Of a DNA stretch of 24,973 bases, positions 3,181-20,764 are shown piece by piece. Both the position numbers and the translations under genes were made by a program. The notes under the pieces are model-generated. The model saw nothing but the letters and a program-made list of their open reading frames with translations. It was not told where the DNA came from and ran no database searches. The first letter of the stretch is position 1, and each line of letters starts with the position of its first letter. Origin of the DNA: a virus; IMG/VR virus record IMGVR_UViG_3300032665_000178, positions 1-24,973 of that record; one strand, 5' to 3'.

Positions 3181-3330
3181 TTATCTCCTGCCTCTTTTAG
3201 CTCTTTCAATCCAGTTTAATCTTTCTCTTACAGATAATTCTTTAATATCTGCTAGAGTCCAACCAGTAAAACTTCTTGTTAAAAACTCATATTGATCTAA
3301 TAAATTCTCGTAATCCGAGTCTTTATAAAC
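3181..3330 (-). CDS. Frameshifted C-terminal extension of tail assembly chaperone (GT-like product)
   Basis: This 49-codon frame ends with TAA at 3183-3181, three bases before the tape measure ATG, and contains no ATG, GTG or TTG. It lies +1 relative to the upstream chaperone frame and overlaps that gene's last codons. Its own frame is closed upstream by a TAG just before ATT TGT TTC, so only about 15 bases are available for a switch. The peptide looks like real protein: FTGWTLADIKELSVRERLNW followed by a basic tail. In long-tailed phages the gene before the tape measure is commonly made in two forms through programmed frameshifting. I infer the same here: ribosomes that slip would make about 311 residues instead of 264. 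A rare ATT start is possible, but it has no ribosome binding site. Confidence 0.75.
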   Translation of the reverse strand, partial: VYKDSDYENLLDQYEFLTRSFTGWTLADIKELSVRERLNWIERAKRGRR

Positions 3331-3337
3331 GAAACAA
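3323..3337 (-). promoter_or_regulatory. Candidate +1 ribosomal frameshift site (TTG TTT CGT TTA TAA)
   Basis: On the minus strand the zero frame reads TTG TTT CGT TTA and then TAA at 3325-3323. A tRNA-Phe on TTT (3334-3332) could re-pair on TTC after moving one base forward, and the next codon would be GTT (3330-3328), entering the extension frame. TTT CGT is the same heptamer core as the known +1 site UCC UUU CGU of the influenza PA-X gene. A -2 slip would reach the same frame, but no good -2 slippery heptamer is visible. The exact slip point is inference. Confidence 0.55.
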
Positions 3338-4117
3338 ATCTACAAGACTAAGTGGTAGCGCCATTAGCTCTCCACATGCCTTGCAGGTCTTGCTCACCTC
3401 CCCTAGGCGTGGGCCTGGGTTACGGCTAATAATTTCTTCTACAATCTTTGATCGGTCTGCCATGCCCATGTTGAGAACAGTGCTTGCTCCAATAGAAGGC
3501 ATATTATTTACAGATCTAACACATCCAGCTAGCAAAATAGTATTTAACTCAGAAGGGGTTTTATCAGAATTCTCTAATAATTTTTTTTGAGTAATTCCTG
3601 TAGGAAGTGAGACAACCGCAATACCTTTTCCTGTTTGCACAGTAAATGTGCGGTCAGCCACGGGGTCTTCTAGTTCTTTAACAGGAACATCTTCATTAAA
3701 ATCAATAGTAGTGACCTGGCCTTCTCCACAGCTTGCGCAAACCACGTTATAGTCAACTGTGTTACCAAAGGTAACTCTTCGGACTCCAAGAAGGATAGCG
3801 TCTCTGTCCCCAGACAATAGAGCGTCTAGGTCTTCACGGGTAGCGTCTCTGGAACCGATTTTTACAAGCCCTCGTTGAAGTAGGATATTAAGAGCTTTAC
3901 CTGTGCTAGTTGCTTTGGCAATTGCCTCTTCATCTACACCATTAAGCTCTCTAACTTCTGCCTTTTTAACTAGTTCTCCACTGCTTTCTATAAAACCGCC
4001 TGGAAGATTAACTTCAGGTCCTAGAGGAGCCTTAGTCTCAATGACTTGTTCTGGCTCCTCTAGCGCCTGCTGAGCGAATTTGTTTACGAGTTCTGCGTCA
4101 GTAATTATTTCTGCCAC
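3323..4117 (-). CDS. Tail assembly chaperone, T4 gp26-like, with zinc ribbon
   Basis: A 264-residue soluble protein between the tail tube and tape measure genes. It starts with GTG at 4117, with AAGGAG eight bases upstream. Two cysteine pairs, CASC (127-130) and CKAC (245-248), could together bind one zinc ion. The stretch LLGVRRVTFGNTVDYNVVC before the first pair resembles the T4-type baseplate hub / gp26 family, whose members carry a CxxC after a similar strand; this is family recall. Gene order argues for a tail assembly chaperone that keeps the tape measure soluble during tube assembly. The last six codons overlap a second frame without a start codon, so a longer product of about 311 residues is probably made by +1 frameshifting after Phe262. 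Confidence 0.75.
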   Translation of the reverse strand: MAEIITDAELVNKFAQQALEEPEQVIETKAPLGPEVNLPGGFIESSGELVKKAEVRELNGVDEEAIAKATSTGKALNILLQRGLVKIGSRDATREDLDALLSGDRDAILLGVRRVTFGNTVDYNVVCASCGEGQVTTIDFNEDVPVKELEDPVADRTFTVQTGKGIAVVSLPTGITQKKLLENSDKTPSELNTILLAGCVRSVNNMPSIGASTVLNMGMADRSKIVEEIISRNPGPRLGEVSKTCKACGELMALPLSLVDLFRL

Positions 4118-4143
4118 TTATTGTTCTCCTTATAAGTTATGTA

Positions 4144-4824
4144 TTAGTATTGTGATGCGGCGTTAAATCCATCTGCTGTTTGGCCAGAACCAGTGACAGC
4201 ATTAGCGGGATTTAAGTAGTAAACAGATAGACCTTCATGGGTTAGGGTCATACTCTCAAACAAGATAGATCCATTGGTAGCATCTAGGTCTGTATAGTTT
4301 AAACCAGTGATAAACGCATTATGAATTTTAAAAGCCATAAGAGGAAAATCACTGTTCATATTAGTATTTGGGTGATCGTTTACTGTGATATAAACGTCTA
4401 CACGGAAGTTATTAGCTCCTGTTCCAAAAGGTCCGCCACTGTTTAGGCCTGAACCCTGTGCTGCAGCAAACAATCCGCGCATCCAAACCATAGCTTGATC
4501 ATTGCCATAAACAACGCCTCGGCTAAATTGAATTGGTTGAAACGTTGTCATACCAGGCATTTGGTGAACGGTAGTGTTGAAGCCACCTTCACGATAAGTG
4601 ATATTTTGAGTGTTGATAGAAAGGCCGCTGATAGTAGTAAAGCCGCCCTGCCATCCATTGGATGTACCATTAGGGTTACCTACTGTTGAATCAGAAGTAT
4701 CAACAATACGTGAATCAAAAGGTGCAGCATCTCCAGTTTTTACAAAGCTAGCTCGAAATCGAAACGAGCGTAGCGGGTCAGTAGCAATACTAGAGTAAAG
4801 CTGATTGAGTGTTGTTGTTGCCAT
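4144..4824 (-). CDS. Tail tube protein (T4 gp19-like)
   Basis: A 226-residue protein directly downstream of the sheath gene, the standard myovirus order. The N-terminus contains DPLRSFRFRASF, the centre contains GFTTISGLSINTQNITYREGG, and the C-terminal third contains FKIHNAFITGLNYTDLDAT. This is the usual pattern of T4-type tail tube proteins: a GL-x-(5-8)-YREGG strand and a late W/F-x-NAFxTGLxYxDLDA segment. It should form stacked hexameric rings inside the sheath. Length is close to that of other gp19-like proteins. AAGGAG precedes the ATG at 4824. No unusual features were seen. Confidence 0.9.
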   Translation of the reverse strand: MATTTLNQLYSSIATDPLRSFRFRASFVKTGDAAPFDSRIVDTSDSTVGNPNGTSNGWQGGFTTISGLSINTQNITYREGGFNTTVHQMPGMTTFQPIQFSRGVVYGNDQAMVWMRGLFAAAQGSGLNSGGPFGTGANNFRVDVYITVNDHPNTNMNSDFPLMAFKIHNAFITGLNYTDLDATNGSILFESMTLTHEGLSVYYLNPANAVTGSGQTADGFNAASQY

Positions 4825-4838
4825 TATTGGTTATCTCC

Positions 4839-6632
4839 TTACCCTTGTGTGATGGTTGTTCCACCATCAAACTGGCCGATGTTGATTACTACGAATTCAG
4901 CTGGGCGCTGTAGGGCAACACCAACTTGAATATTTACATACCCATTATCAATAGCTGATTGAGTGTTGTTGTCAGAATCGCATTTAACAAAGAATGCGTT
5001 TGATGCTTGTGATCCTGCCAAACCGCCTTGACTCCAGAAAGAAGTTAAGAAATTGCTTACTGTTGCATTTATACGAGCCCATAGACGCGAGTCATTTGGC
5101 TCAAAGATAGCAAAACGAGTTAGATCTGTAAGAGACTTTTCAAGGTAGATTAAGGTACGTCGTACAGGAACATACTGAGTGACAAATCCAGGTTGTAGAG
5201 TGCGTGAGCCAAACACAACAATTCCAGCGCCTGGGATGTAGCGAATGGCGTTTACTGGTGCAGCGTCTGAGTTAAGTGCGTCTAGGTTTGCACTTGATAG
5301 AGAAGGAACAGATACAGCTCCTGCAACTCTAGACCCTAAACCAGCAGGGGCTTTAAAGACTCCTCGTGAGGCGTCAGTTGCCGCATAAATTCCCATTACA
5401 GCTCCTGCAGCTCCAACTGTCTTTGTAGAAGTTGAAGGCGCTCCAACTCCAGCGGTTGGATCGGAAATTGTAATTTGTGGGTAGTAAACAGCTGCGTATG
5501 ATGAGGATGTATAGCTCTCAGATAAAATCAACTGGCTAGCTGGATCAATTGTAACTCCATCACTTAGAGCGCTTGTTCCAGCCGCTCCAGTATAAGAAGT
5601 TGCATCAATAACTACAAATGAGTCAGTTCGACCAGATGCATATGAGATAGCTGAGTTAATTGTTGAAGCATCTGTAAAGCCAGCAACGTTAATCAGTAAA
5701 GAGTTTTGAATAGTGTCAAATGGGCTTGGTGAGCCAAACGCAGCAGCTACAATTGTTGACCCTGTTACAACAGATCCGTCTGAATAAGAAGTAAGAGCGA
5801 TATTAGTTTGTGTTGAGGGGTTGCTAATTGGGGATACCGATGTAGATCCTAAATCAGTAGCGACAATGTACTTAGAGCTTTGATTGATAACGTTTACAGC
5901 GTAGCGTGGATCTGTAGACTTCATAATCAAGTTAGGCCATTGCTCAACTAAATATGCTGAGGTTGTTCCACCCAGGTAAACTGAGATATTAAAGTAGTTG
6001 CTTTGAGTTATGGCAGATGCGCTTGCTCCAGTTACTGCTGTTCCAGTTGCAGCGTTAGACACTGTAAACTGAGTTGAAGTAGCTGTCGCAATTGTTACAT
6101 TAGTCAAGTTAAATGCAGAGGTTGAAAGTCCTGTAATAGATACAATTTGACCGGCTGTAAAAGTGTTGTTAGCTGTGTAAGTTACTACACCGCCAGTAGC
6201 TGATGCGGCAGTAACTACGGCATTTAAAACGCCTGTGTTAGAGTTAGAAATGGTTACGTTGAGGCTTCCTCCCCAAGATCCAACACTTGAAGCAGATAGC
6301 TTCAGTGTAGGTTGAGGGCTACCTGCGTTATCGCTAAAACTTCTTGTTCCTGCGGTAGCGCCGGACCCAGGTACGCGAAGAACGTAAGTTCCGCTTCCAC
6401 CATTTGCAAAGTACAAGTAGACTGCAATTGGTAGGTTGTTATTTGCAATAGTATTCCAGCCGCCGTACAAAGATGTGTACTGGCTCCAAGAAGTGATCAA
6501 TGTAGGTGTTGTTGGTCCTCGGTCTGACGCACCAACAAAAGCTCCAACTGTTGTTGAAGAGGCACCAGCAATAGGTGCAATAGGGTTTAACGTCTCTTGA
6601 ACGTATGTCCCAGGTCTAGCGTATGTTGCCAT
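4839..6632 (-). CDS. Tail sheath protein with extra beta-module insertion
   Basis: A 597-residue contractile sheath protein. The N-terminus YARPGTYVQETLNPIAP and the early SYxxGAFVGxSDRGP-type segment are typical of sheath proteins. The C-terminal part, with GFVTQYVPVRRTLIYLEKSL, FEPNDSRLWARINATVSNFL and a late FVKCDSDNN, matches the conserved sheath core that links subunits. Between GSWGGSLNVTISNSN (about 119-133) and YFNISVYLGG (about 213-222), where related sheaths usually run straight on, there is an extra Thr/Ala-rich segment of roughly 75 residues. It has the pattern VVTYTANNTFTAGQIVSITG and is like a small beta-sandwich found in phage fibres. AAGGAG precedes the ATG. The protein works with the tube to drive contraction during injection. 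Confidence 0.92.
   Translation of the reverse strand: MATYARPGTYVQETLNPIAPIAGASSTTVGAFVGASDRGPTTPTLITSWSQYTSLYGGWNTIANNNLPIAVYLYFANGGSGTYVLRVPGSGATAGTRSFSDNAGSPQPTLKLSASSVGSWGGSLNVTISNSNTGVLNAVVTAASATGGVVTYTANNTFTAGQIVSITGLSTSAFNLTNVTIATATSTQFTVSNAATGTAVTGASASAITQSNYFNISVYLGGTTSAYLVEQWPNLIMKSTDPRYAVNVINQSSKYIVATDLGSTSVSPISNPSTQTNIALTSYSDGSVVTGSTIVAAAFGSPSPFDTIQNSLLINVAGFTDASTINSAISYASGRTDSFVVIDATSYTGAAGTSALSDGVTIDPASQLILSESYTSSSYAAVYYPQITISDPTAGVGAPSTSTKTVGAAGAVMGIYAATDASRGVFKAPAGLGSRVAGAVSVPSLSSANLDALNSDAAPVNAIRYIPGAGIVVFGSRTLQPGFVTQYVPVRRTLIYLEKSLTDLTRFAIFEPNDSRLWARINATVSNFLTSFWSQGGLAGSQASNAFFVKCDSDNNTQSAIDNGYVNIQVGVALQRPAEFVVINIGQFDGGTTITQG
6003..6236 (-). other. Inserted beta-sandwich-like module in tail sheath
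   Basis: Sheath residues about 133-210. The segment contains GGVVTYTANNTFTAGQIVSI, TGLSTSAFNLTNVTIAT and QFTVSNAATGTAVTG, a pattern I know from repeated surface modules in environmental phage structural proteins. It interrupts a strand pair that is normally contiguous in sheath proteins, so it probably sits as a surface domain on the outside of the tail. Confidence 0.6.
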
Positions 6633-7872: not shown

Positions 7873-8073
7873 TTATTTCTTTTTAACCTTCTTAGCTAAA
7901 GCTTTATCCATTTTCATGTCTTCTTTAGCAGATGGCTTTTTCTTGTCCATCTTTTTGTCTGCTTTTTCAAAAGCAGCCTTTTGCTTAGGAGACATGCCCT
8001 TCATAAGCTTAGCGTCTTGCTTTTTGTCTTTAGCTTTTGCCTTTTTATCACGGCACCCACATGTAGCGCACAT
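7873..8073 (-). CDS. Lys-rich small protein with N-terminal CxxCGC motif, 66 aa
   Basis: I place the start at ATG 8073, giving MCATCGCRDKK; the frame is open further upstream but that part overlaps the preceding gene. The ATG lies one base after the preceding stop (TAATATG), with an AAGGG-type site just upstream. The first seven residues contain three cysteines (C2, C5, C7), and the remainder is about one third lysine with SPKQKAAFEKADKKMDKKK. Short proteins beginning MCATCGC occur in phage structural regions, and I recall them without an assigned role. The cysteines could bind metal; the basic tail could contact DNA or acidic virion surfaces. A terminator follows immediately. Confidence 0.65.
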   Translation of the reverse strand: MCATCGCRDKKAKAKDKKQDAKLMKGMSPKQKAAFEKADKKMDKKKPSAKEDMKMDKALAKKVKKK

Positions 8074-8074
8074 A

Positions 8075-8254
8075 TTACTTGCCCTTCTTCTCGTCCTTCT
8101 TGCCTTTGATGGCAAGCTTAGTCATTTTTGCTTGACCGTACTTTTTACGGCCAGCTGCTGCAGCAACTGCTGCAGGATTCTCTGCTCCAGACTTAGCGGC
8201 TTCTTTTTCAACTTTCTTGAAACGAGCTCCTGAGCCTAATTTAGCTTTTGCCAT
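8075..8254 (-). CDS. Small basic Ala/Lys-rich protein, 59 aa
   Basis: ATG at 8254 with a strong site (AAGGAGAAAAAATG) and a 59-codon frame ending TAA at 8077-8075. The sequence starts MAKAKLGSGARFKKVEKEAA, has an AAAAAGRKKYGQAKM centre and a Lys-rich end. The GSGxRF and GRKKYGQAKM blocks recall small proteins found beside structural genes in many environmental phages. It is about 25 per cent Lys/Arg and likely helical in part. Upstream the stop of the 29-residue gene lies just before its ribosome site, and downstream the next gene starts one base after its stop. Function is unknown. Confidence 0.75.
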   Translation of the reverse strand: MAKAKLGSGARFKKVEKEAAKSGAENPAAVAAAAGRKKYGQAKMTKLAIKGKKDEKKGK

Positions 8255-11562: not shown

Positions 11563-12561
11563 ATGAATCTTGTCCAGCGCTCTGTTTCTAATGGGGGAAA
11601 GCTGGCCCCTTTAGTAATCCCAGAAGGTCTAACTTCAGGCACTGGGCTTATGAATCCATCTATCTTTATTGATGATGATGGGGACATTTTAGTCAACTTG
11701 CGCCATGTAAATTATACACTGTACCACGCTGAGAACAAGCAGAGGTTCCCCAGCCCCTTTGGACCTCTTGCTTACCTTCACCCTGAGAAAGATCAGCGCT
11801 TAGTTACAGAGAACTATCTTTGCCGTTTAGATGAGAACCTAGAAATGATCAACCATACTAAGGTTGAGATGCTCCAACTCCACGAGCCTATTTGGGAGTT
11901 TGTAGGTTTAGAAGACGCGCGCCTAATGCAATGGGAGGGCGTTTACTACTTAGTTGGGGTTCGGCGAGACACTACTACCCATGGCCAAGGTCGTATGGAG
12001 TATAGCCAGATTGAGATTGACAAAGAGACTTGGGCAGTGAAAGAGATAAAGCGCAAACGCATACCCGCTCCAGCGCCTGATGCGTCTTATTGTGAAAAGA
12101 ACTGGTACCCCATATTAGATATGCCATATTACTTTGTAAAATGGACCTCACCTACAGAGATTGTTTATGCGCATCCTACAGCTGAAGAGACTAAACAGAT
12201 TAGTGTTAGAGAGTCTCCACGAACTCCCTTAGACCAACGAGGTAGCTCTCAAGTGGTGCGATGGGGAAACATGTATATTTCTATCTCACATGAGGTAACT
12301 CTTTACAAAAATTACTTATTGCAAAAAGACGGTTTATATCGCCACAGGTTAGTCTTATGGGATCAAGAAATGAACCTCATTGGATATAGCAAAGAATTTT
12401 CATTTTTAGATGGGCAGATAGAGTTTTGTGTTGGAGCTGCTAAGCAAGGTGGAGATCTTCTTGTTAGTTTTGGTTTCCAAGACAATGCTGCATTTGTTCT
12501 TAGAGTACCAGGTCCAGTTGTAGAGGATTTAATTGTGGAGGCTCTTAGTTATGAGAATTGA
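11563..12561 (+). CDS. GH130-like beta-propeller protein (putative glycosidase / glycan phosphorylase-like)
   Basis: A 332-residue protein and the first gene of the plus-strand island. Motifs in order: NPSIFIDDDGDILVNLRHVN (31-50), GLEDARL (115-121) followed by WEGVYYLVGVRRD, CEKNWYP (177-183), RGSSQVV (226-232) and ISHEV (241-245). The NPS, EDxR and EKNW-type blocks match five-bladed beta-propellers related to GH130/GH43, which act on mannosides and other glycans, sometimes as domains beside glycosyltransferases. Whether the catalytic acid is present cannot be settled by eye; it may act as a glycan-binding propeller. No signal peptide, so it acts in the infected cell. The stop overlaps the next start by 11 bases. 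No ribosome site precedes the ATG. Confidence 0.7.
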   Translation: MNLVQRSVSNGGKLAPLVIPEGLTSGTGLMNPSIFIDDDGDILVNLRHVNYTLYHAENKQRFPSPFGPLAYLHPEKDQRLVTENYLCRLDENLEMINHTKVEMLQLHEPIWEFVGLEDARLMQWEGVYYLVGVRRDTTTHGQGRMEYSQIEIDKETWAVKEIKRKRIPAPAPDASYCEKNWYPILDMPYYFVKWTSPTEIVYAHPTAEETKQISVRESPRTPLDQRGSSQVVRWGNMYISISHEVTLYKNYLLQKDGLYRHRLVLWDQEMNLIGYSKEFSFLDGQIEFCVGAAKQGGDLLVSFGFQDNAAFVLRVPGPVVEDLIVEALSYEN

Positions 12562-13111
12562 AGACTTAGTAGTAGAGCTGTCTAAAGATCCTTTTAACCC
12601 AGAACTTAATTTCAAATGCGCTTTAGAATACAACAGAATTAATCAAACCGCTTCTGCCGTTTCTTTTTATCTTAGAACAGCTGAGTACGGTGATGAAGTA
12701 AAAGACAAAGAGATTATTTATATGTCTTTATTAAAAATGGCTTTGTGTTTTGAGGATCAAACTGACAGACAGCACACTGTAATTAACTGCTGGCGTCAGG
12801 CACTCATTGTAGACCCACATAGACCAGAGGCATACTTCCTAATGTCTCAACATTATGAGCGCCAAAAATCATGGCAAGAAGCGTACATGTGGGCAGAGAT
12901 GGGTTTAAGAAACCTAGCTTCAGATCTTCCTGAGTATGTAGGATATCCAGGAATATTTGCTTTAGAGTTTGAAAAAGCGGTAGCTGGTTATTGGATAGGT
13001 AGATATGAAGAGTGCATATCACTATTTAAAAACTTACTTGCCTCAGACATACCTGAAACTTATAAAGAGTCGGTCAAAGGAAACTTAAGGATATTAAATG
13101 TTGCTTTTTGA
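12551..13111 (+). CDS. TPR-like helical protein
   Basis: A 186-residue protein; I choose ATG 12551, with GGAG ten bases upstream, over a TTG at 12533. It is a run of paired helices: DPFNPELNFKCALEYNRI, SFYLRTAEYG, YMSLLKMALCFEDQ, WRQALIVDPHRPEAYFLMSQ, HYERQKSWQEAYMWAEMGLR and FEKAVAGYWIGRYEEC. The DPHRPEAYFLMSQHYE and WAEMGL pattern is that of TPR-type repeats found at the C-terminus of family 2 glycosyltransferases in many phages, but no glycosyltransferase domain is attached here. It overlaps the FkbM gene by 14 bases and shares a 19-base identity with the broken copy at 13762-14057. A scaffold for the neighbouring glycan enzymes is plausible. Confidence 0.7.
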   Translation: MRIEDLVVELSKDPFNPELNFKCALEYNRINQTASAVSFYLRTAEYGDEVKDKEIIYMSLLKMALCFEDQTDRQHTVINCWRQALIVDPHRPEAYFLMSQHYERQKSWQEAYMWAEMGLRNLASDLPEYVGYPGIFALEFEKAVAGYWIGRYEECISLFKNLLASDIPETYKESVKGNLRILNVAF

Positions 13112-13760
13112 TATAGGCGCTAACCGCGGAGATGCCACTATTGCAGGTCTTAATAAAGGTTACCAAGTAGTTGCCTTAGAGCCTGCGCCAAGAGTGTTTG
13201 CTGAGCTAGTAAAAAACTTTATTTATAATCCAGCAGTTATTCCTTTAAAGTTTGCAGTTTCAGACTCTAATGGACAACTAATTGACTTGTACGAGGCTGA
13301 CGAAGATGGCCTATCTTCTATAAATAAGCATTGGCTTACTGGTGATGAGATGCCCTACAAGGGTAAACCTTTTAGAACTGTAAAAGCATATACCACTACA
13401 GTTGATTCCTTAGCAAATGTCTATGGAGAGCCTGATTTAATAAAGATAGATGTAGAAGGCGCCGAATGGTCTGTGTTTAAGGGCATGACTAAGCACCACG
13501 GAACCCTAACTTTTGAATGGACAAACGTAACTATTGGCGAGCACCAATCTCAGTTAGAGTATTTAAAGTCTTTGGGGTACACAGAGTTTGGCCCACAGTT
13601 TATTGAGCACCATCTTCAAGAGCCTAAAGAATGGTTTTCTATTGAAAAATATCGCTTAGACGATTGGGCAATCAAGAACTTAGCAAAATGGGAAGACGGC
13701 GGTTGGAAAAAGTCAGGCCTCAGACCTACAGCAGATGTGGGAATGTGCTGGGTTCGTTAA
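13098..13760 (+). CDS. FkbM-family SAM-dependent methyltransferase
   Basis: A 220-residue protein with class I methyltransferase motifs: DIGANRGD (5-12) as the SAM-binding glycine loop, VVALEP (24-29) with the acidic residue after strand 2, and DLIKIDVEGAEW (113-124), the FkbM signature IDVEGxE. FkbM-type enzymes O-methylate sugars or other small molecules, and phage copies often sit next to glycosyltransferases. The C-terminal part after about 150 (LEYLKSLGYTEFGP, then EWFSIEKYRLDDW) resembles the sugar-handling extension in phage members. The ATG overlaps the TPR-like gene by 14 bases and has AAGGA six bases upstream. It probably methylates a glycan on the virion or host surface; the acceptor is unknown. 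Confidence 0.85.
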   Translation: MLLFDIGANRGDATIAGLNKGYQVVALEPAPRVFAELVKNFIYNPAVIPLKFAVSDSNGQLIDLYEADEDGLSSINKHWLTGDEMPYKGKPFRTVKAYTTTVDSLANVYGEPDLIKIDVEGAEWSVFKGMTKHHGTLTFEWTNVTIGEHQSQLEYLKSLGYTEFGPQFIEHHLQEPKEWFSIEKYRLDDWAIKNLAKWEDGGWKKSGLRPTADVGMCWVR

Positions 13761-15367: not shown

Positions 15368-18307
15368 TTAGATGTACGCTCCCATGATAGTGAGGATGTT
15401 GTTGTCGTCTCCCCAACGAAGACCATCTGTCTGCGTTGAGTCTGGTACTAAGGTTTGACGGCCAGTACCGACCGCTTGGTTTGTAATTGCTCCAGAAGCT
15501 GTTCCTACAAGTATATCACCCTTAGCTGTAACAGCGGCTGAAGTTAGCACTGTTCCAGAGGTAGGTAATGTTAGGGTTGTAGCTCCAGAAGTTGTAAAGA
15601 TAAGTGAGTTACCTGTTGTAGATAGGGGAACTGTGTACCTTGTAGTAGAAGGAGAGTAGTATAAGTTGCCCGAAGAATCTACTTCCATATTTCCAGCTGC
15701 TGGAGTTGTTAGTAAAACAGCACTGGTCGGGGTAAATCGAAGAGGGGCTGCGGTAGCTGTTCCAGCTGCATGCAGTGGGGAAACTAGTGTGGGGGTTGTA
15801 ATCGTCGGGGATCCAGAAAATACTACAGCAGTTGAAGTTGTTCCTTGAGATCCAGAAGCTGTATAGCCGGTAATATTGTTAAATGCTGTAATACCTGCTG
15901 TACCAGTACCTGTTCCACCGTTTGCAACGTTTAAAGTACCAGCTAATGTTACCGCTCCAGAGGTTCCTGTTGAAGGAGTTAATCCTGTAGTTCCGGCACT
16001 AAAAGTAGTAACTCCAGTAGTACCTGTTAAGTAGGTGGTGTTGTTTAGAGAGCCATTACCCATTACAAATTGGGCTGAAGTTCCACCAGAAGTTATATGC
16101 TGAGCAGCAGTAATATTTCCAGAGGTAGTAAGAGTACCTTGGATGCTTACCGTTTTCGCTGAAAAATCTCCACCTATTAATGGGGTAGATGTAGTAGAGT
16201 TAGCAATGTAAAGTTTGTTAGAGCCTGTTTCATTATATCCAGCTTGATAACCAATAAAGACGTTTCCTATACCAGATCCATTAGAGTATCCTGATAGAGA
16301 TCCAACAAATACATTATTTCCACCAGCAGCAGAAACTCCTGTTACAGGTACACTAAATCCTGAGCCAGTTCCACCAATAGTTGAAGGATCAGCAGATAAT
16401 ACAGTTGTAGTATCTCCTCCTGCACCACCATTAGTGAGGGTTACAGAGGTTACCGCACCGCCAGAAACAACAATGGTTGCTGTAGGATCTAAAATTGGAC
16501 CAGTTCCCGCAGTAGGATTTAACATAACTCCTGTATAGGTTCCATTTGTATACCCAGAACCACCAGTAATAGTACCTAAAGTTGTTATGGAAGTGGATAA
16601 ACTATATCCAGCACGATCTCCAATAAATATGTTCTCAGATCCACTTGTGTTATTGTAACCTGCTCCGTATCCTACTGCTGAGTTGGAATAGCCCGTAGTG
16701 TTAGAGTGTAATGAATTAACTCCTACTGCTGAGTTTACATATCCCGTAGTGTTATAATTTAATGAATTAGATCCTACTGCGGTGTTACTTCCAGTTAAAT
16801 AATTACCTTGATATGAAGCCATAGCTGAATAACCAATAGCAGTATTATATGAATACGAGTTGGTCATTGCTAAAACTGGAACAGAAAATCCTGATCCCGT
16901 ACCGCCAATTGATGCTGCAGATGCAGATAAAACAGTGGTTGTATTTCCCCCAAGTCCTGTTGTTGTAAGAGTTACGGTTGATACAGATCCACCTGAAATT
17001 GTAATATTTGCTTTAGGATAAACAGTCATTGCAGTACCACTAACATAAGTTAGTGTTACATTTGTATAAGTTCCTGCTGTATAACCAGTACCACCAGTAA
17101 TTGTTCCAAGAACGTTGATTCCTGTACCTGCATTTGTTAATGCTCCATTACCTATTGCTGTAGAATAAGTTCCATAATTATTGCCTTTTCCTACTGTTAC
17201 ACCATCAATACTCTGATCAACGCTAAATGAGTTGTTAGCATTTGTTACTGCAATATTAGTAATAGCTCCTGAGGAACCGTTAACAGTTGTAACACCTGTT
17301 GTACCAGTAAGGTAAGTGGTGTTATCTAGTGTTCCATTGCCTTTAACAAATTGGGCAGAAGTTCCACCTGTGGTAACGTGTGAAGTTCCCTGAAGAGATC
17401 CGGTTACTACTACAGACGTACCTGTAGCGGCGCCTATATTTGGGGTGACTAAAACTGCGTTAGTATCAAGTACTACGTTATTACCAGTACCAGTAGGTGA
17501 CTGTAATTGAATAACTCCAGAAACATATTGAAGGCCAGGACCAGTTGTTACTATGCCTTGTAAGCCAGTAGCGCCTTGTGTTCCCGTTGTTCCTTGACTT
17601 CCAGTAGCGCCTGTAGAACCGGTTGTTCCTTGAGTGCCCTGTACTGTGTACATAACCTGAGTGGCGGTAACAATAACTCCTGGAGTAATAGGGACTGTTG
17701 GCCCTGTTTGAGCACCACTTGTTGCAATACTGATAGTGGTGCTAGAGACCGCCCAAGCAAACTGAATATAATCTCCAGCGTTTAATGTAATAACATAGTT
17801 AACTGCTGCAATTAAAGCGCCCGCTCCACCATGAGAAGTGCCTGGGACGTTATAAATTGAGTTAGAGTCGGCTACGTCTGTTCCGTTTTTACGAATCCAA
17901 ACATCAACGTTATCTGAGTTAACGTCAGAGTTATTGAATTGAAACGAGTACTGGATGTTGTAGGTTCCAGCGTGGGAAAAAGTTAACTGGTTACCGCTAA
18001 CAATGCTTACTCCGTTTGCCTCAAACTGTGACCCGATGTTGACTACGTACGCAGTAGTTGTACTTGAGGCAGTTTGAGTTGTGGTGTCATAAAAAGAGCC
18101 ATAGTAGGCAAGAGCACCACCAGCACCTGTGGTTCCCGTGGTTCCTTGAACACCCTGAGCGCCTCCAGAGGTGATCCACGAGGTTCCATTGTAGGTTTTT
18201 ACGCCCTGGATTCCTGTGTTGAAGTAGGTATCTCCAGAACTAAAAGTTCCAGTAGGGTCGCTGGGATAAGCAGGCAGCCCTACTGGTACCAAAAACTTAC
18301 GAGACAT
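15368..18307 (-). CDS. Large tail fibre: collagen-like, C1q-like and YadA-head-like repeats
   Basis: A 979-residue fibre. Residues 1-48 are an N-terminal anchor (FSSGDTYFNTGIQGVKTYNG, TSW). Two short collagen-like blocks, about 49-64 (QGVQGTTGTTGAGG) and 223-251 (QGTQGTTGSTGATGSQG), flank a 160-residue domain starting LAYYGSFYDTTTQT, with GTYNIQYSFQF and LNAGDYIQFAWAVSS, a C1q/TNF-like jelly roll common in phages. Then follow YadA-head-like turns (STAIGNGAL, NTAIGYSAM, NSAVGVNSL, NVFIGYQAGYN) split by two copies of a 79-residue module. The C-terminus KGDILVGTASG and DGLRWGDDN is a common phage fibre end. It should form a trimeric stalk and receptor-facing region. TAGGAG precedes the ATG. Confidence 0.85.
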   Translation of the reverse strand: MSRKFLVPVGLPAYPSDPTGTFSSGDTYFNTGIQGVKTYNGTSWITSGGAQGVQGTTGTTGAGGALAYYGSFYDTTTQTASSTTTAYVVNIGSQFEANGVSIVSGNQLTFSHAGTYNIQYSFQFNNSDVNSDNVDVWIRKNGTDVADSNSIYNVPGTSHGGAGALIAAVNYVITLNAGDYIQFAWAVSSTTISIATSGAQTGPTVPITPGVIVTATQVMYTVQGTQGTTGSTGATGSQGTTGTQGATGLQGIVTTGPGLQYVSGVIQLQSPTGTGNNVVLDTNAVLVTPNIGAATGTSVVVTGSLQGTSHVTTGGTSAQFVKGNGTLDNTTYLTGTTGVTTVNGSSGAITNIAVTNANNSFSVDQSIDGVTVGKGNNYGTYSTAIGNGALTNAGTGINVLGTITGGTGYTAGTYTNVTLTYVSGTAMTVYPKANITISGGSVSTVTLTTTGLGGNTTTVLSASAASIGGTGSGFSVPVLAMTNSYSYNTAIGYSAMASYQGNYLTGSNTAVGSNSLNYNTTGYVNSAVGVNSLHSNTTGYSNSAVGYGAGYNNTSGSENIFIGDRAGYSLSTSITTLGTITGGSGYTNGTYTGVMLNPTAGTGPILDPTATIVVSGGAVTSVTLTNGGAGGDTTTVLSADPSTIGGTGSGFSVPVTGVSAAGGNNVFVGSLSGYSNGSGIGNVFIGYQAGYNETGSNKLYIANSTTSTPLIGGDFSAKTVSIQGTLTTSGNITAAQHITSGGTSAQFVMGNGSLNNTTYLTGTTGVTTFSAGTTGLTPSTGTSGAVTLAGTLNVANGGTGTGTAGITAFNNITGYTASGSQGTTSTAVVFSGSPTITTPTLVSPLHAAGTATAAPLRFTPTSAVLLTTPAAGNMEVDSSGNLYYSPSTTRYTVPLSTTGNSLIFTTSGATTLTLPTSGTVLTSAAVTAKGDILVGTASGAITNQAVGTGRQTLVPDSTQTDGLRWGDDNNILTIMGAYI
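16343..17110 (-). repeat. Duplicated 79-residue module within the large fibre
   Basis: Residues about 400-478 (17110-16874) and 577-655 (16579-16343) share LGTITGG-GYT-GTYT, a VSGG-V-SVTLT-type segment and IGGTGSGFSVPV. They sit on both sides of the block of YadA-head-like turns. A second pair, GGTSAQFV-GNG-L-NTTYLT at about residues 314-333 and 741-760, shows further internal duplication. Confidence 0.85.
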
Positions 18308-18323
18308 GAATTACTCCTAATTA

Positions 18324-19931
18324 TTAGCCAGATATTACAAATTGCAATGCACCGTTTGGTGGTGCAGTAATCCAAGAGAAGGTAGTGTGGTTAGCGTCTG
18401 TGTGAGTAACATCAACAAAGTACTCAACAAGACTTGTGGGGTCGTATACGTTTTCTGTTGTGTAGAAGGTGTTAAGTCCGTGGTTAACAACCTGTGTACC
18501 GTTAGCAGAAAGTCCGCCGTAGTTAACACGATACTTTTCAGCAACTAAGGTTGTATCAACTGAGACAACACCTGCGCTTACAAGAATACCCGAGCCCTGA
18601 GTAACTGAAGCTTGAGAGCCCTGAAGACCTTGAACACCCTGTGTACCTTGGTTACCTTGGAGTCCTTGTAAACCTTGAGTTCCTTGTGAGCCAGTGGTTC
18701 CAGTAGTACCCTGAGTACCAACGGTTCCCTGTGTACCAGTTGCGCCTTGTGTTCCAACAGTACCTTGAGCACCTGTAGTACCTTGAATACCTGAAGGTCC
18801 TTGGATACCGACAGCACCATCAAGGTTAACTGTCCATGATGTGAATGTTCCAGAGCCAACGCTGCCTGTGACGTTTATGGTCATGCTGCCTGTTGCAGGT
18901 GTGTAGGCAGTAACGTTACCGTACATTAAGTTAGAGATACTGTTTGCAACAATTACTGACTGTCCAACAGAGTAAGACAGGTAAGTTCCTACAGTAAAGG
19001 TTTGAGTACCAGTACCGCTAATGGTCATTGAGGTTGTTGAGGATGTCTGATAAACGTTACCGGCGGTACCTTGTAAACCTTGTGATCCAGTCGTTCCTTG
19101 AATACCCTGTGTGCCTTGAGTTCCTTGAGCACCAGTGGCGCCTGTGGTTCCTTGCGCTCCAGTTGTACCTTGAGATCCTGTGGTTCCTGTTGTACCTTGT
19201 GAGCCTGTAGTACCAGTTGTGCCTTGGCTACCTGTTGCTCCAGTTGTGCCCTGTGAGCCAGTAGTTCCCTGTGTTCCGTTAGTTCCGTTTGTTCCTTGTG
19301 TTCCAGTAGTGCCTTGTGATCCTGTAGTGCCCTGGATTCCTTGTAGACCGCTAGTAGCAAAAGTCCACGCTGCAAATGTTCCAGAGCCGCCTGTGTTTGT
19401 AACGTTAACAGTAATGCTACTGTCTAATGTAAGCGCGGTAATTTGACCCAGCATAAAGTTAGAAGGCGTACCTGTGTTAGTTACAATTACATATTCACCA
19501 ACGTTAAAATCGCCAGAGTTAGTTACTGTAAATGCTTTAGATCCTGTGCCAATTGTGGTAGATGTAGCAGAGGTTACGTTAAGGTGAGACCTTCCCTGAA
19601 CTCCTTGAGTTCCCTGGGTTCCCTGTGTGCCTTGAGTACCAGTTGTTCCTTGGGTACCGTTTGTTCCAGAAGTTCCCTGGGTACCTGTAGTTCCCTGCAG
19701 GCCTGTGGTACCTTGGATGCCTTGGGTTCCCTGGGCGCCTGTTGTACCTGTTGTTCCTTGGCTAGCGTTTAACCACGCAGTTCCGTTCCAAGTCCTAAGG
19801 TAGTTAAGAGTAGTGTCATAATAGACCTGACCAAGTGAAGGTGAGGATGGGGCGGTAGAGAGGTTCTGAATTACAGGATTCAGTAACTGGTTTTGCTTTA
19901 AATCAATACCAGTAAGAAAAATACGTGCCAT
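18324..19931 (-). CDS. Collagen-like tail fibre protein, 535 aa
   Basis: A 535-residue fibre with an N-terminal anchor (FLTGIDLKQNQLLNPVIQNL, then YYDTTLNYLRTWNGTAWLN) similar to that of the next fibre. Three Gly-X-Y collagen-like blocks (about 57-113, 195-291, 372-440; GTQ, GTT, GSQ triplets) alternate with two related beta modules (about 114-194 and 292-371) of the form VGEYVIV / VGQSVIV, then GTFAAWTF / GTFTSWTV. The C-terminal 70 residues include VVNHGLNTFYTTENVYDP and LVEYFVDV, a compact HNL-type fibre end domain. Phage collagen-like segments trimerise without hydroxyproline. Start ATG has AAGGAG upstream. Confidence 0.85.
   Translation of the reverse strand: MARIFLTGIDLKQNQLLNPVIQNLSTAPSSPSLGQVYYDTTLNYLRTWNGTAWLNASQGTTGTTGAQGTQGIQGTTGLQGTTGTQGTSGTNGTQGTTGTQGTQGTQGTQGVQGRSHLNVTSATSTTIGTGSKAFTVTNSGDFNVGEYVIVTNTGTPSNFMLGQITALTLDSSITVNVTNTGGSGTFAAWTFATSGLQGIQGTTGSQGTTGTQGTNGTNGTQGTTGSQGTTGATGSQGTTGTTGSQGTTGTTGSQGTTGAQGTTGATGAQGTQGTQGIQGTTGSQGLQGTAGNVYQTSSTTSMTISGTGTQTFTVGTYLSYSVGQSVIVANSISNLMYGNVTAYTPATGSMTINVTGSVGSGTFTSWTVNLDGAVGIQGPSGIQGTTGAQGTVGTQGATGTQGTVGTQGTTGTTGSQGTQGLQGLQGNQGTQGVQGLQGSQASVTQGSGILVSAGVVSVDTTLVAEKYRVNYGGLSANGTQVVNHGLNTFYTTENVYDPTSLVEYFVDVTHTDANHTTFSWITAPPNGALQFVISG
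18612..19763 (-). repeat. Gly-X-Y coding repeats and duplicated beta modules
   Basis: Three collagen-coding stretches (19763-19593, 19349-19059, 18818-18612) built from degenerate nine-base units, separated by two related beta-module coding stretches (19592-19350 and 19058-18819). The triplet repetition is interrupted and codon choice varies, so it is a protein repeat, not a satellite or CRISPR. It offers many sites for length change by recombination. Confidence 0.85.
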
Positions 19932-19945
19932 TGTCTACTGTCTCC

Positions 19946-20764
19946 TTAAGATAGGTACGCTGTGCCAGAGAATCCGCCTGAGAAGGTTACTTGTAGTGAA
20001 TTTAGGCTTAAATAAGCTACTTCTCCTTCAACAATACTACCAGCGGAATCTTCAATTGTAAGGTTAGGGTAAAAATTTAAATTATGATTAATTGTCCACA
20101 CCGTTGATGGTGAGCCTTGTGTATACACATAAGAAGTCTTTGGTGTTGTTCCTTGAACGCCTTGTATACCTTGTACTCCTTGAGCTCCACTGCCAGCAGG
20201 TCCTTGAACACCTGCGGGTCCCTGAAGTCCTGCAGCTCCGCTCGGATTTATGTACCAATAATCATCAGCTCCACTTCCCGTTACCGCGGTAAAGGAGATG
20301 CCCATTACCCCATTTTCTGGGTTATAGTTTGTGATTATTCCATAAAATGCCAAACCATACACATTTTGAGAAACACCGATAATAGTATCTCCTACTGTGT
20401 ACGCTAGGCCTTGAGCTCCAGAAGAGTCAGATGTAACAATACCGCTATGTATATTTGGGCTTATAGATCCTCCAGTAAATATAAGTGCAGAGTATTTATC
20501 CGCGGAACCTTGTATGCCTTGAACACCAGCTACTGCATAAACGTTTGTTCCAGGTTGAGGTATAACGTTTATAGCTTGCGTTGCTTGAACTGGTGCTGGG
20601 GGATTAGGGGCGGCTATTACTGTTGGAGCGCCTGGGATTACTGATATCGAGGAAGGTGTGGGCGAAGTTATAGTGACTGGATTACTAGTTTGTGGTACGA
20701 CAATTATAGGGCTTGAGCAGGTGCACCCAGGGCCCCAGTTATTACCGCAACCGCAATTAGTCAA
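19946..20764 (-). CDS. Cys-headed short collagen-like fibre protein, 272 aa
   Basis: A 272-residue protein starting at TTG 20764 within the end of the adaptor gene (8-base overlap) with AGGTGA just upstream. The first 16 residues contain four cysteines (NCGCGNNWGPGCTCS), then a Pro/Thr/Val-rich linker. Two short collagen-like blocks (VQGIQG near 80, GLQGPAGVQGPAG and VQGIQGVQGTT after about 180) flank a beta module (YTVGDTIIG, GVMGISFTAVTGSGADDYWY) of the same kind as those in the 535-residue fibre. The C-terminus VWTINHNLNFYPNLTIEDS with VTFSGGFSGTAYLS is the HNL-type fibre end domain. A link between adaptor/baseplate and fibres, or a short fibre, is likely. The Cys cluster could bind metal or form disulfides after lysis. 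Confidence 0.75.
   Translation of the reverse strand: MTNCGCGNNWGPGCTCSSPIIVVPQTSNPVTITSPTPSSISVIPGAPTVIAAPNPPAPVQATQAINVIPQPGTNVYAVAGVQGIQGSADKYSALIFTGGSISPNIHSGIVTSDSSGAQGLAYTVGDTIIGVSQNVYGLAFYGIITNYNPENGVMGISFTAVTGSGADDYWYINPSGAAGLQGPAGVQGPAGSGAQGVQGIQGVQGTTPKTSYVYTQGSPSTVWTINHNLNFYPNLTIEDSAGSIVEGEVAYLSLNSLQVTFSGGFSGTAYLS

Follow-up and report, generated by a model that had tools for sequence, protein, structure and literature searches.

A UUU-CGN junction conserved among relatives and a predicted +1 frameshift in a T4-type tail assembly chaperone gene

The window, by which is meant here the whole stretch of 24,973 bases of viral DNA that was analysed, carries on its minus strand a contractile-tail gene run of sheath, tube, chaperone and tape measure (Table 1). 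The chaperone gene lies between the tail tube and tape measure genes, and its zero frame ends in GAT TTG TTT CGT TTA TAA. A second frame, at +1, is open from 14 bases ahead of this stop; two bases separate its own stop from the tape-measure ATG, and the ribosome site of the tape measure gene lies inside its end. All 52 codons of the open +1 frame in the window were searched for ATG, GTG and TTG and none was found, as the sequence-only reading had stated. When the sequence is translated with a +1 step after TTT, a protein of 311 residues results, whose junction is DLFVYK (VDLF-VYKD). This product, the 49-codon frame, the short overlap and the end just ahead of the tape measure gene, all described in that earlier reading, were reproduced.

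Table 1 Features of the chaperone locus and its neighbours in the window
Feature	Position	Strand	Basis
Tail sheath gene	4839..6632	-	PF17482, phrog_23
Tail tube gene (gp19 family)	4144..4824	-	PF06841, 9.3e-21
Chaperone ribosome-binding site AAGGAG	4126..4131	-	sequence
Zero frame, short chaperone (TAC-N), 264 aa, GTG start	3323..4117	-	ORF; PF12322
Conserved block AACCCAGGCCCACGCCTAGGGGAGGTG	3395..3421	-	synonymous constraint; possible hairpin, SD-like end; main clade only
TTG codon before shift codon (E site)	3335..3337	-	81/90; conserved at nucleotide level
TTT shift codon (P site)	3332..3334	-	TTT in 90/90 distinct relatives
CGT waiting codon (A site)	3329..3331	-	CGN in 84/90
C skipped by predicted +1 shift	3331	-	C in 89/90 relatives
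Zero-frame stop TAA	3323..3325	-	
+1 frame, predicted 49-codon C-terminal extension of long chaperone (TAC-NC)	3181..3330	-	no start codon, selection
+1 frame stop	3181..3183	-	
Tape-measure ribosome site AGGAG	3185..3189	-	
Tape measure gene, 725 aa	1001..3178	-	PHROG tape measure match 8.2e-9

The zero-frame product matches PF12322 (T4_baseplate) with 33.3 bits (E 5.3e-8), above the curated cut-off of 24.5 bits, and also matches phrog_150, 'baseplate hub'. The same family was matched by all 25 aligned relatives at the E limit of 0.1 that was used, and two CxxC pairs (C127/C130 and C245/C248) are invariant among them. From the letters alone a CxxC zinc-ribbon chaperone had been proposed; the CxxC pairs were borne out, and the assignment is corrected to the T4 gp26/gp51 family, an already identified chaperone. 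The zero-frame product alone was modelled by AlphaFold2 with 62 relatives, giving a mean pLDDT of 88.6. Among solved structures the HK97 tail assembly chaperone 2ob9 ranked first in Foldseek (E 0.23, prob 0.91) and again in VIA-align (Z 6.5, below 8, over 90 residues at 4.5 Å), where it was followed by 3fgx (Z 6.1), 5ir0 (Z 4.6) and zinc-ribbon structures at Z 3.5 and less. A viral structure library returned proteins named T4-like baseplate hub assembly proteins as best matches, and when the family profile was run against the sequences of solved structures, no significant match came up. Taken by themselves the numbers for 2ob9 are modest; that both aligners rank it first agrees with the position of the gene. 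The identity of the product as a tail assembly chaperone is supported by comparative evidence, with which the position of the gene and, modestly, the predicted fold agree.

Both gp26 (208 aa) and gp51 (249 aa) of T4 match PF12322 (8.8e-64 and 3.9e-52), and gp51 extends about 48 residues beyond gp26 at the C-terminus, so that the two look like a short and a long form. The likeness to the window is close, in that gp51 consists of the family domain and about 48 residues and the 311-residue form of TAC-N and 49; in T4, however, two separate genes are present, whereas the window has one gene with a predicted +1 shift. The T4 pair was considered as a novel claim and dropped, since gp26 and gp51 have already been published as the short and long T4-type tail assembly chaperones (Vladimirov, Gautam and Davidson, Virology 2022, as cited in PMC10885494 and PMC12846349). 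In an older review, chaperone frameshifting was described as conserved 'except T4' (PMC5009743).

With little change, the shift site recurs in about a hundred related phages of lakes and soil. Scanning viral contigs with the fused protein gave 72 relatives (contig L002 being the window's own sequence), and 80 further loci came from a profile scan, together with two contigs of bacterial genomes (Streptomyces and Saccharothrix). No match to the window came from an identity search of the phage collection; by tblastn in phage records, the Streptomyces phages BRock, Alone3, LuckySocke, pSt2308 and GiJojo were recovered. These near isolates suggest, through sequence kinship, an actinobacterial host for the phage of the window. 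The +1 arrangement was present in all four Streptomyces phages examined (BRock, Alone3, pSt2308 and GiJojo), with the junction CTG TTT CGC GAA CTC stop, or CTG TTT CAG in the case of Alone3. In their records the chaperone is annotated as two separate genes, or the first gene alone is given.

Ninety distinct junctions were compared, and as the relatives share kinship, the counts that follow are not counts of independent events. The P-site codon is TTT in all 90 and the next base is C in 89, the exception being the T of a TGA stop. The waiting codon is CGC in 47 junctions, CGT in 31, CGA in six, CAA in three and CAG, CTC and TGA in one each, which makes CGN in 84/90, and the zero-frame stop follows 0-3 codons past the shift site. 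Before TTT stands TTG (81), CTG (5), CTC (3) or CTA (1). Among all leucine codons of the family TTG has a share of 10.6%, yet it fills this place in 81 of the 90. Both TTT and the preceding TTG are under exceptional synonymous constraint, the excess at the pre-shift leucine being 0.76 against -0.03 to 0.42 at other invariant leucine columns. The +1 frame would be untranslated ahead of the shift, and overlapping coding therefore does not account for TTG. Outside this site, TTT CGN is depleted in the same phages (54 observed, 118 expected) and TTC CGN enriched (89 observed, 51 expected). This depletion fits a slippery pair that is shunned by ordinary genes, and a codon-pair bias of other origin may contribute in part. 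The +1 direction and the TTT CGT slip site proposed from the sequence alone thus agree with the comparative evidence, and the alignment with relatives that had been suggested as a check showed TTT CGN to be conserved.

The +1 domain evolves as protein, with purifying selection in the +1 frame alone. In the three largest length classes, pN/pS in this frame was 0.23, 0.50 and 0.61, compared with about 1.0-1.5 for the same region in the other two frames; internal stops occur in 0/90 sequences in the +1 frame and in 89/90 in each of the others. The domain has the motif GW-(S/T)L-x-(D/E)-(I/V)...RER..W. Its match to PF06528, the part of P2 gpE+E' that is encoded through the frameshift, lies below the cut-off (E 0.018, best member 0.0068) and, like that of 2ob9 to the zero frame, is weak when taken singly; for this comparison the frame of P2 E/E' was checked in the P2 sequence.

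Judged from these sequence comparisons, it is highly likely that a programmed +1 frameshift in a T4-type tail assembly chaperone gene yields the short and the long form from one gene. The +1 frame might instead be a separate small gene, opened by a non-standard start or by termination-reinitiation at the zero-frame stop. The closeness of that stop to the downstream frame would suit such a gene, as would the TTG, GTG or ATG found somewhere in the +1 frame of several relatives, the ATG that contigs L252 and L257 have in the downstream frame, and the annotation of two genes, or the first only, in the Streptomyces phage records. Nevertheless, we consider this quite improbable: the frame of the window is without any start, 47 of the 90 relatives have none within nine codons past the shift, and no start column is conserved. 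Moreover, conservation of the +1-frame protein starts at the shift codon itself, and a separate gene leaves the codon-level conservation of TTG TTT C without a reason. The lack of a separate start for the second frame, put forward from the sequence alone, is supported by the relatives.

A -2 shift would reach the same frame as a +1 shift, and -2 shifts are known in the chaperones of some phages; no tool result spoke in its favour. Re-pairing after a -2 step is impossible around TTG TTT or CTG TTT, where TTT would sit on TGT, and the change in other clades to CTT-T/C is likewise +1 competent. As for +1 slippage on another codon, TTT is the only one in the overlap that is able to re-pair at +1, and joining of the frames in either of these ways is slightly less probable still than a separate gene. 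That the two frames once formed a continuous gene whose end has decayed or was mis-sequenced, and that the short form only is made, is scarcely credible, as nothing beyond the split itself suggests it and about a hundred distinct sequences, isolates included, retain the split, with purifying selection on the +1 domain. Neither chance nor the sequencing error that the earlier reading named as a possible refutation explains the arrangement, which recurs in 90 distinct homologues and in isolated Streptomyces phages. Transcriptional slippage was rejected, there being no long homopolymer.

Under the programmed +1 frameshift, most ribosomes would terminate at TAA and release the 264-residue TAC-N. 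The shift itself is very probably, as far as sequence allows, a slippage of tRNA-Phe from UUU to UUC that gives a minor 311-residue chaperone. The anticodon GAA of this tRNA pairs with UUU by wobble and with UUC perfectly, which is the established reasoning for UUU_C sites, so that a move of one base forward improves the pairing. A minority of ribosomes would pause while UUU holds tRNA-Phe in the P site and CGU waits in the A site; re-pairing of this tRNA on UUC would then carry the reading into the +1 frame, and TAC-NC would be made. If the analogy with gpG/gpGT of lambda holds, the tape measure protein may be covered by many copies of TAC-N and few of TAC-NC, and the tail-tube protein may be recruited by the extension of TAC-NC. 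Rarity of the A-site codon was rejected as cause of the pause: of the arginine codons in the window's genes, CGT and CGC belong to the most frequent, and neither the preference for CGN nor a pause is accounted for by rarity.

With respect to stimulators, the sequence 3' of the shift site is unpaired in the RNAalifold prediction, and at a spacing of 3-4 bases from the site there is no Shine-Dalgarno-like element. Within the chaperone gene, a block (AACCCAGGCCCACGCCTNGGGGAGGTG in the window) shows strong nucleotide-level conservation in the main clade. This block (AACCCAGGCCCACGCCTTGGGGAGGTG) lies 45-90 bases, or about 60, upstream of the shift codon, which is too distant for Shine-Dalgarno stimulation of a ribosome at that site, and it was absent from the outlying clades. 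A hairpin of -10.8 kcal/mol can be drawn in it. As a proven stimulator this hairpin was rejected, because one covarying pair only was observed, shuffled sequences folded nearly as well and the block is absent in distant clades.

Frameshifting in tail chaperone genes is classical. The gene pairs G/GT of lambda and E/E' of P2 resemble the chaperone of the window in having a short form and a low-level long form encoded just before the tape measure, and in P2 the PF06528 domain of E' weakly matches the +1 extension; they differ in shifting by -1 on heptamer-type slippery runs, whereas the predicted shift of the window is +1 on UUU-CGN. In RF2 (prfB), CUU UGA similarly involves a P-site +1 slip at a slow A site, and related chaperone clades have UUU UGA or CUU UUA/CUA; unlike RF2, the chaperones mostly have a sense codon in the A site and are without the Shine-Dalgarno-like element at 3-4 base spacing. 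Sites of the type UUU_CGN with +1 shifting are cited for influenza PA-X (Firth 2012) and plant amalgaviruses (Nibert 2016; both via PMC5009743 and PMC7230728). These share with the window the P-site UUU, the A-site CGN and the +1 slip of tRNA-Phe; they concern eukaryotic ribosomes and unrelated proteins, and the preceding codon is UCC in PA-X and UUG in the window.

The sequence-only reading had called a UUU CGU site in such a phage chaperone unusual; a precedent exists in a tailed virus, since a TTT-CGC +1 chaperone shift was proposed in 2020 for the HF1-group haloviruses HF1, HF2 and HSTV-2 (PMC7230728). The HF2 junction reads AAG TTT CGC AGA TAG, and here too TTT CGC stands just ahead of the stop of the first frame, in a gene between tail tube and tape measure, with a +1 step. 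The host, however, is archaeal and the second domain is unlike that of the window; the HF2 chaperone (156 aa) gave no PF12322 match and no significant match of any kind in Pfam. Beyond the family of the window, the motif thus has at least one earlier proposal, in a chaperone that apparently belongs to another family, although remote homology may link the two. A UUU-C(GN) +1 site in the bacterial PF12322 family was not found described in the literature searched, in which Vladimirov 2022 is represented through citing papers. What is apparently new is the +1 UUU-C(GN) site as the prevailing device across bacterial PF12322 chaperones, and also the conserved element upstream of the site. The isolated Streptomyces phages offer a bacterial system for the UUU_CGN +1 site known from PA-X, so that the codons flanking UUU can be tested on bacterial ribosomes. 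Furthermore, the frameshifted chaperones of many contractile phages are linked to T4 gp26/gp51, and an annotation in which the second frame is recorded as a separate hypothetical gene, or is missing, can be corrected.

When wider clades were included, the 138 sequences comprised 119 with TTT-C, eight with TTT-T and 11 with CTT-Y, and all of these are shift codons on which the tRNA can re-pair at +1; after clustering at 70% identity, TTT-C was present in 50 of the 58 clusters. Distant PF12322 proteins again have a second frame at +1; in most of them CGN, CTN or CCA stands after TTT, and a marine clade has TTT TGG. A +1 continuation was also observed in isolates: Streptococcus vB_SagM-GXN1 (TTC TTT CGT), Bacillus SP-15 (TTT TTT CAC), Listeria LIS04 (TTT TTT AGT), Microcystis Mel-JY01 (TTT TTT TGG) and Flavobacterium immuto (TTT CTT TGG). 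A tentative and on the whole doubtful extension of these observations is that +1 slippage on UUU-C at a conserved Leu-Phe close to the end of PF12322 chaperones is the old, prevailing route to the long T4-type chaperone in bacterial contractile phages, from which the separate T4 genes gp26/gp51 and rare -1 cases are derived, and that in the main freshwater clade a conserved element 60 bases upstream (hairpin and GGGGAGGTG) tunes the shift. If this were true, that element would stimulate shifting from upstream in a way of a new kind.

Several variants of the junction deserve separate mention. In the freshwater contigs L204-L237, TTT CGN is replaced by CTT TTA or CTT CTA, an RF2-like CUU slip. 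In another freshwater clade (L060, positions 1560-1565, and also L061-L063) the stop TGA stands directly 3' of TTT, and the zero frame thus ends at the shift codon itself. Two PF12322-like loci, L079 and L266 (gut phage MT121964 and Agrobacterium phage Atu_ph07), show apparent shifts in the opposite direction, -1, at TTT TTC.

Elsewhere in the window, large collagen-like proteins with GTTG/GTQG repeats, probably tail fibre or surface proteins, are encoded at 15368-20764 (minus strand). Three genes of opposite strand lie within the structural region at 11563-13760 (plus strand); by eye, that at 13098-13760 resembles an FkbM-type methyltransferase and that at 11563-12561 a glycan-processing enzyme. 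At 7873-8254 (minus strand) lie two overlapping lysine-rich reading frames, one of them zinc-finger-like (CATCGCRDKKAK) and covering the end of the other, a small one (8254-8075); they could be a further frame-linked pair.
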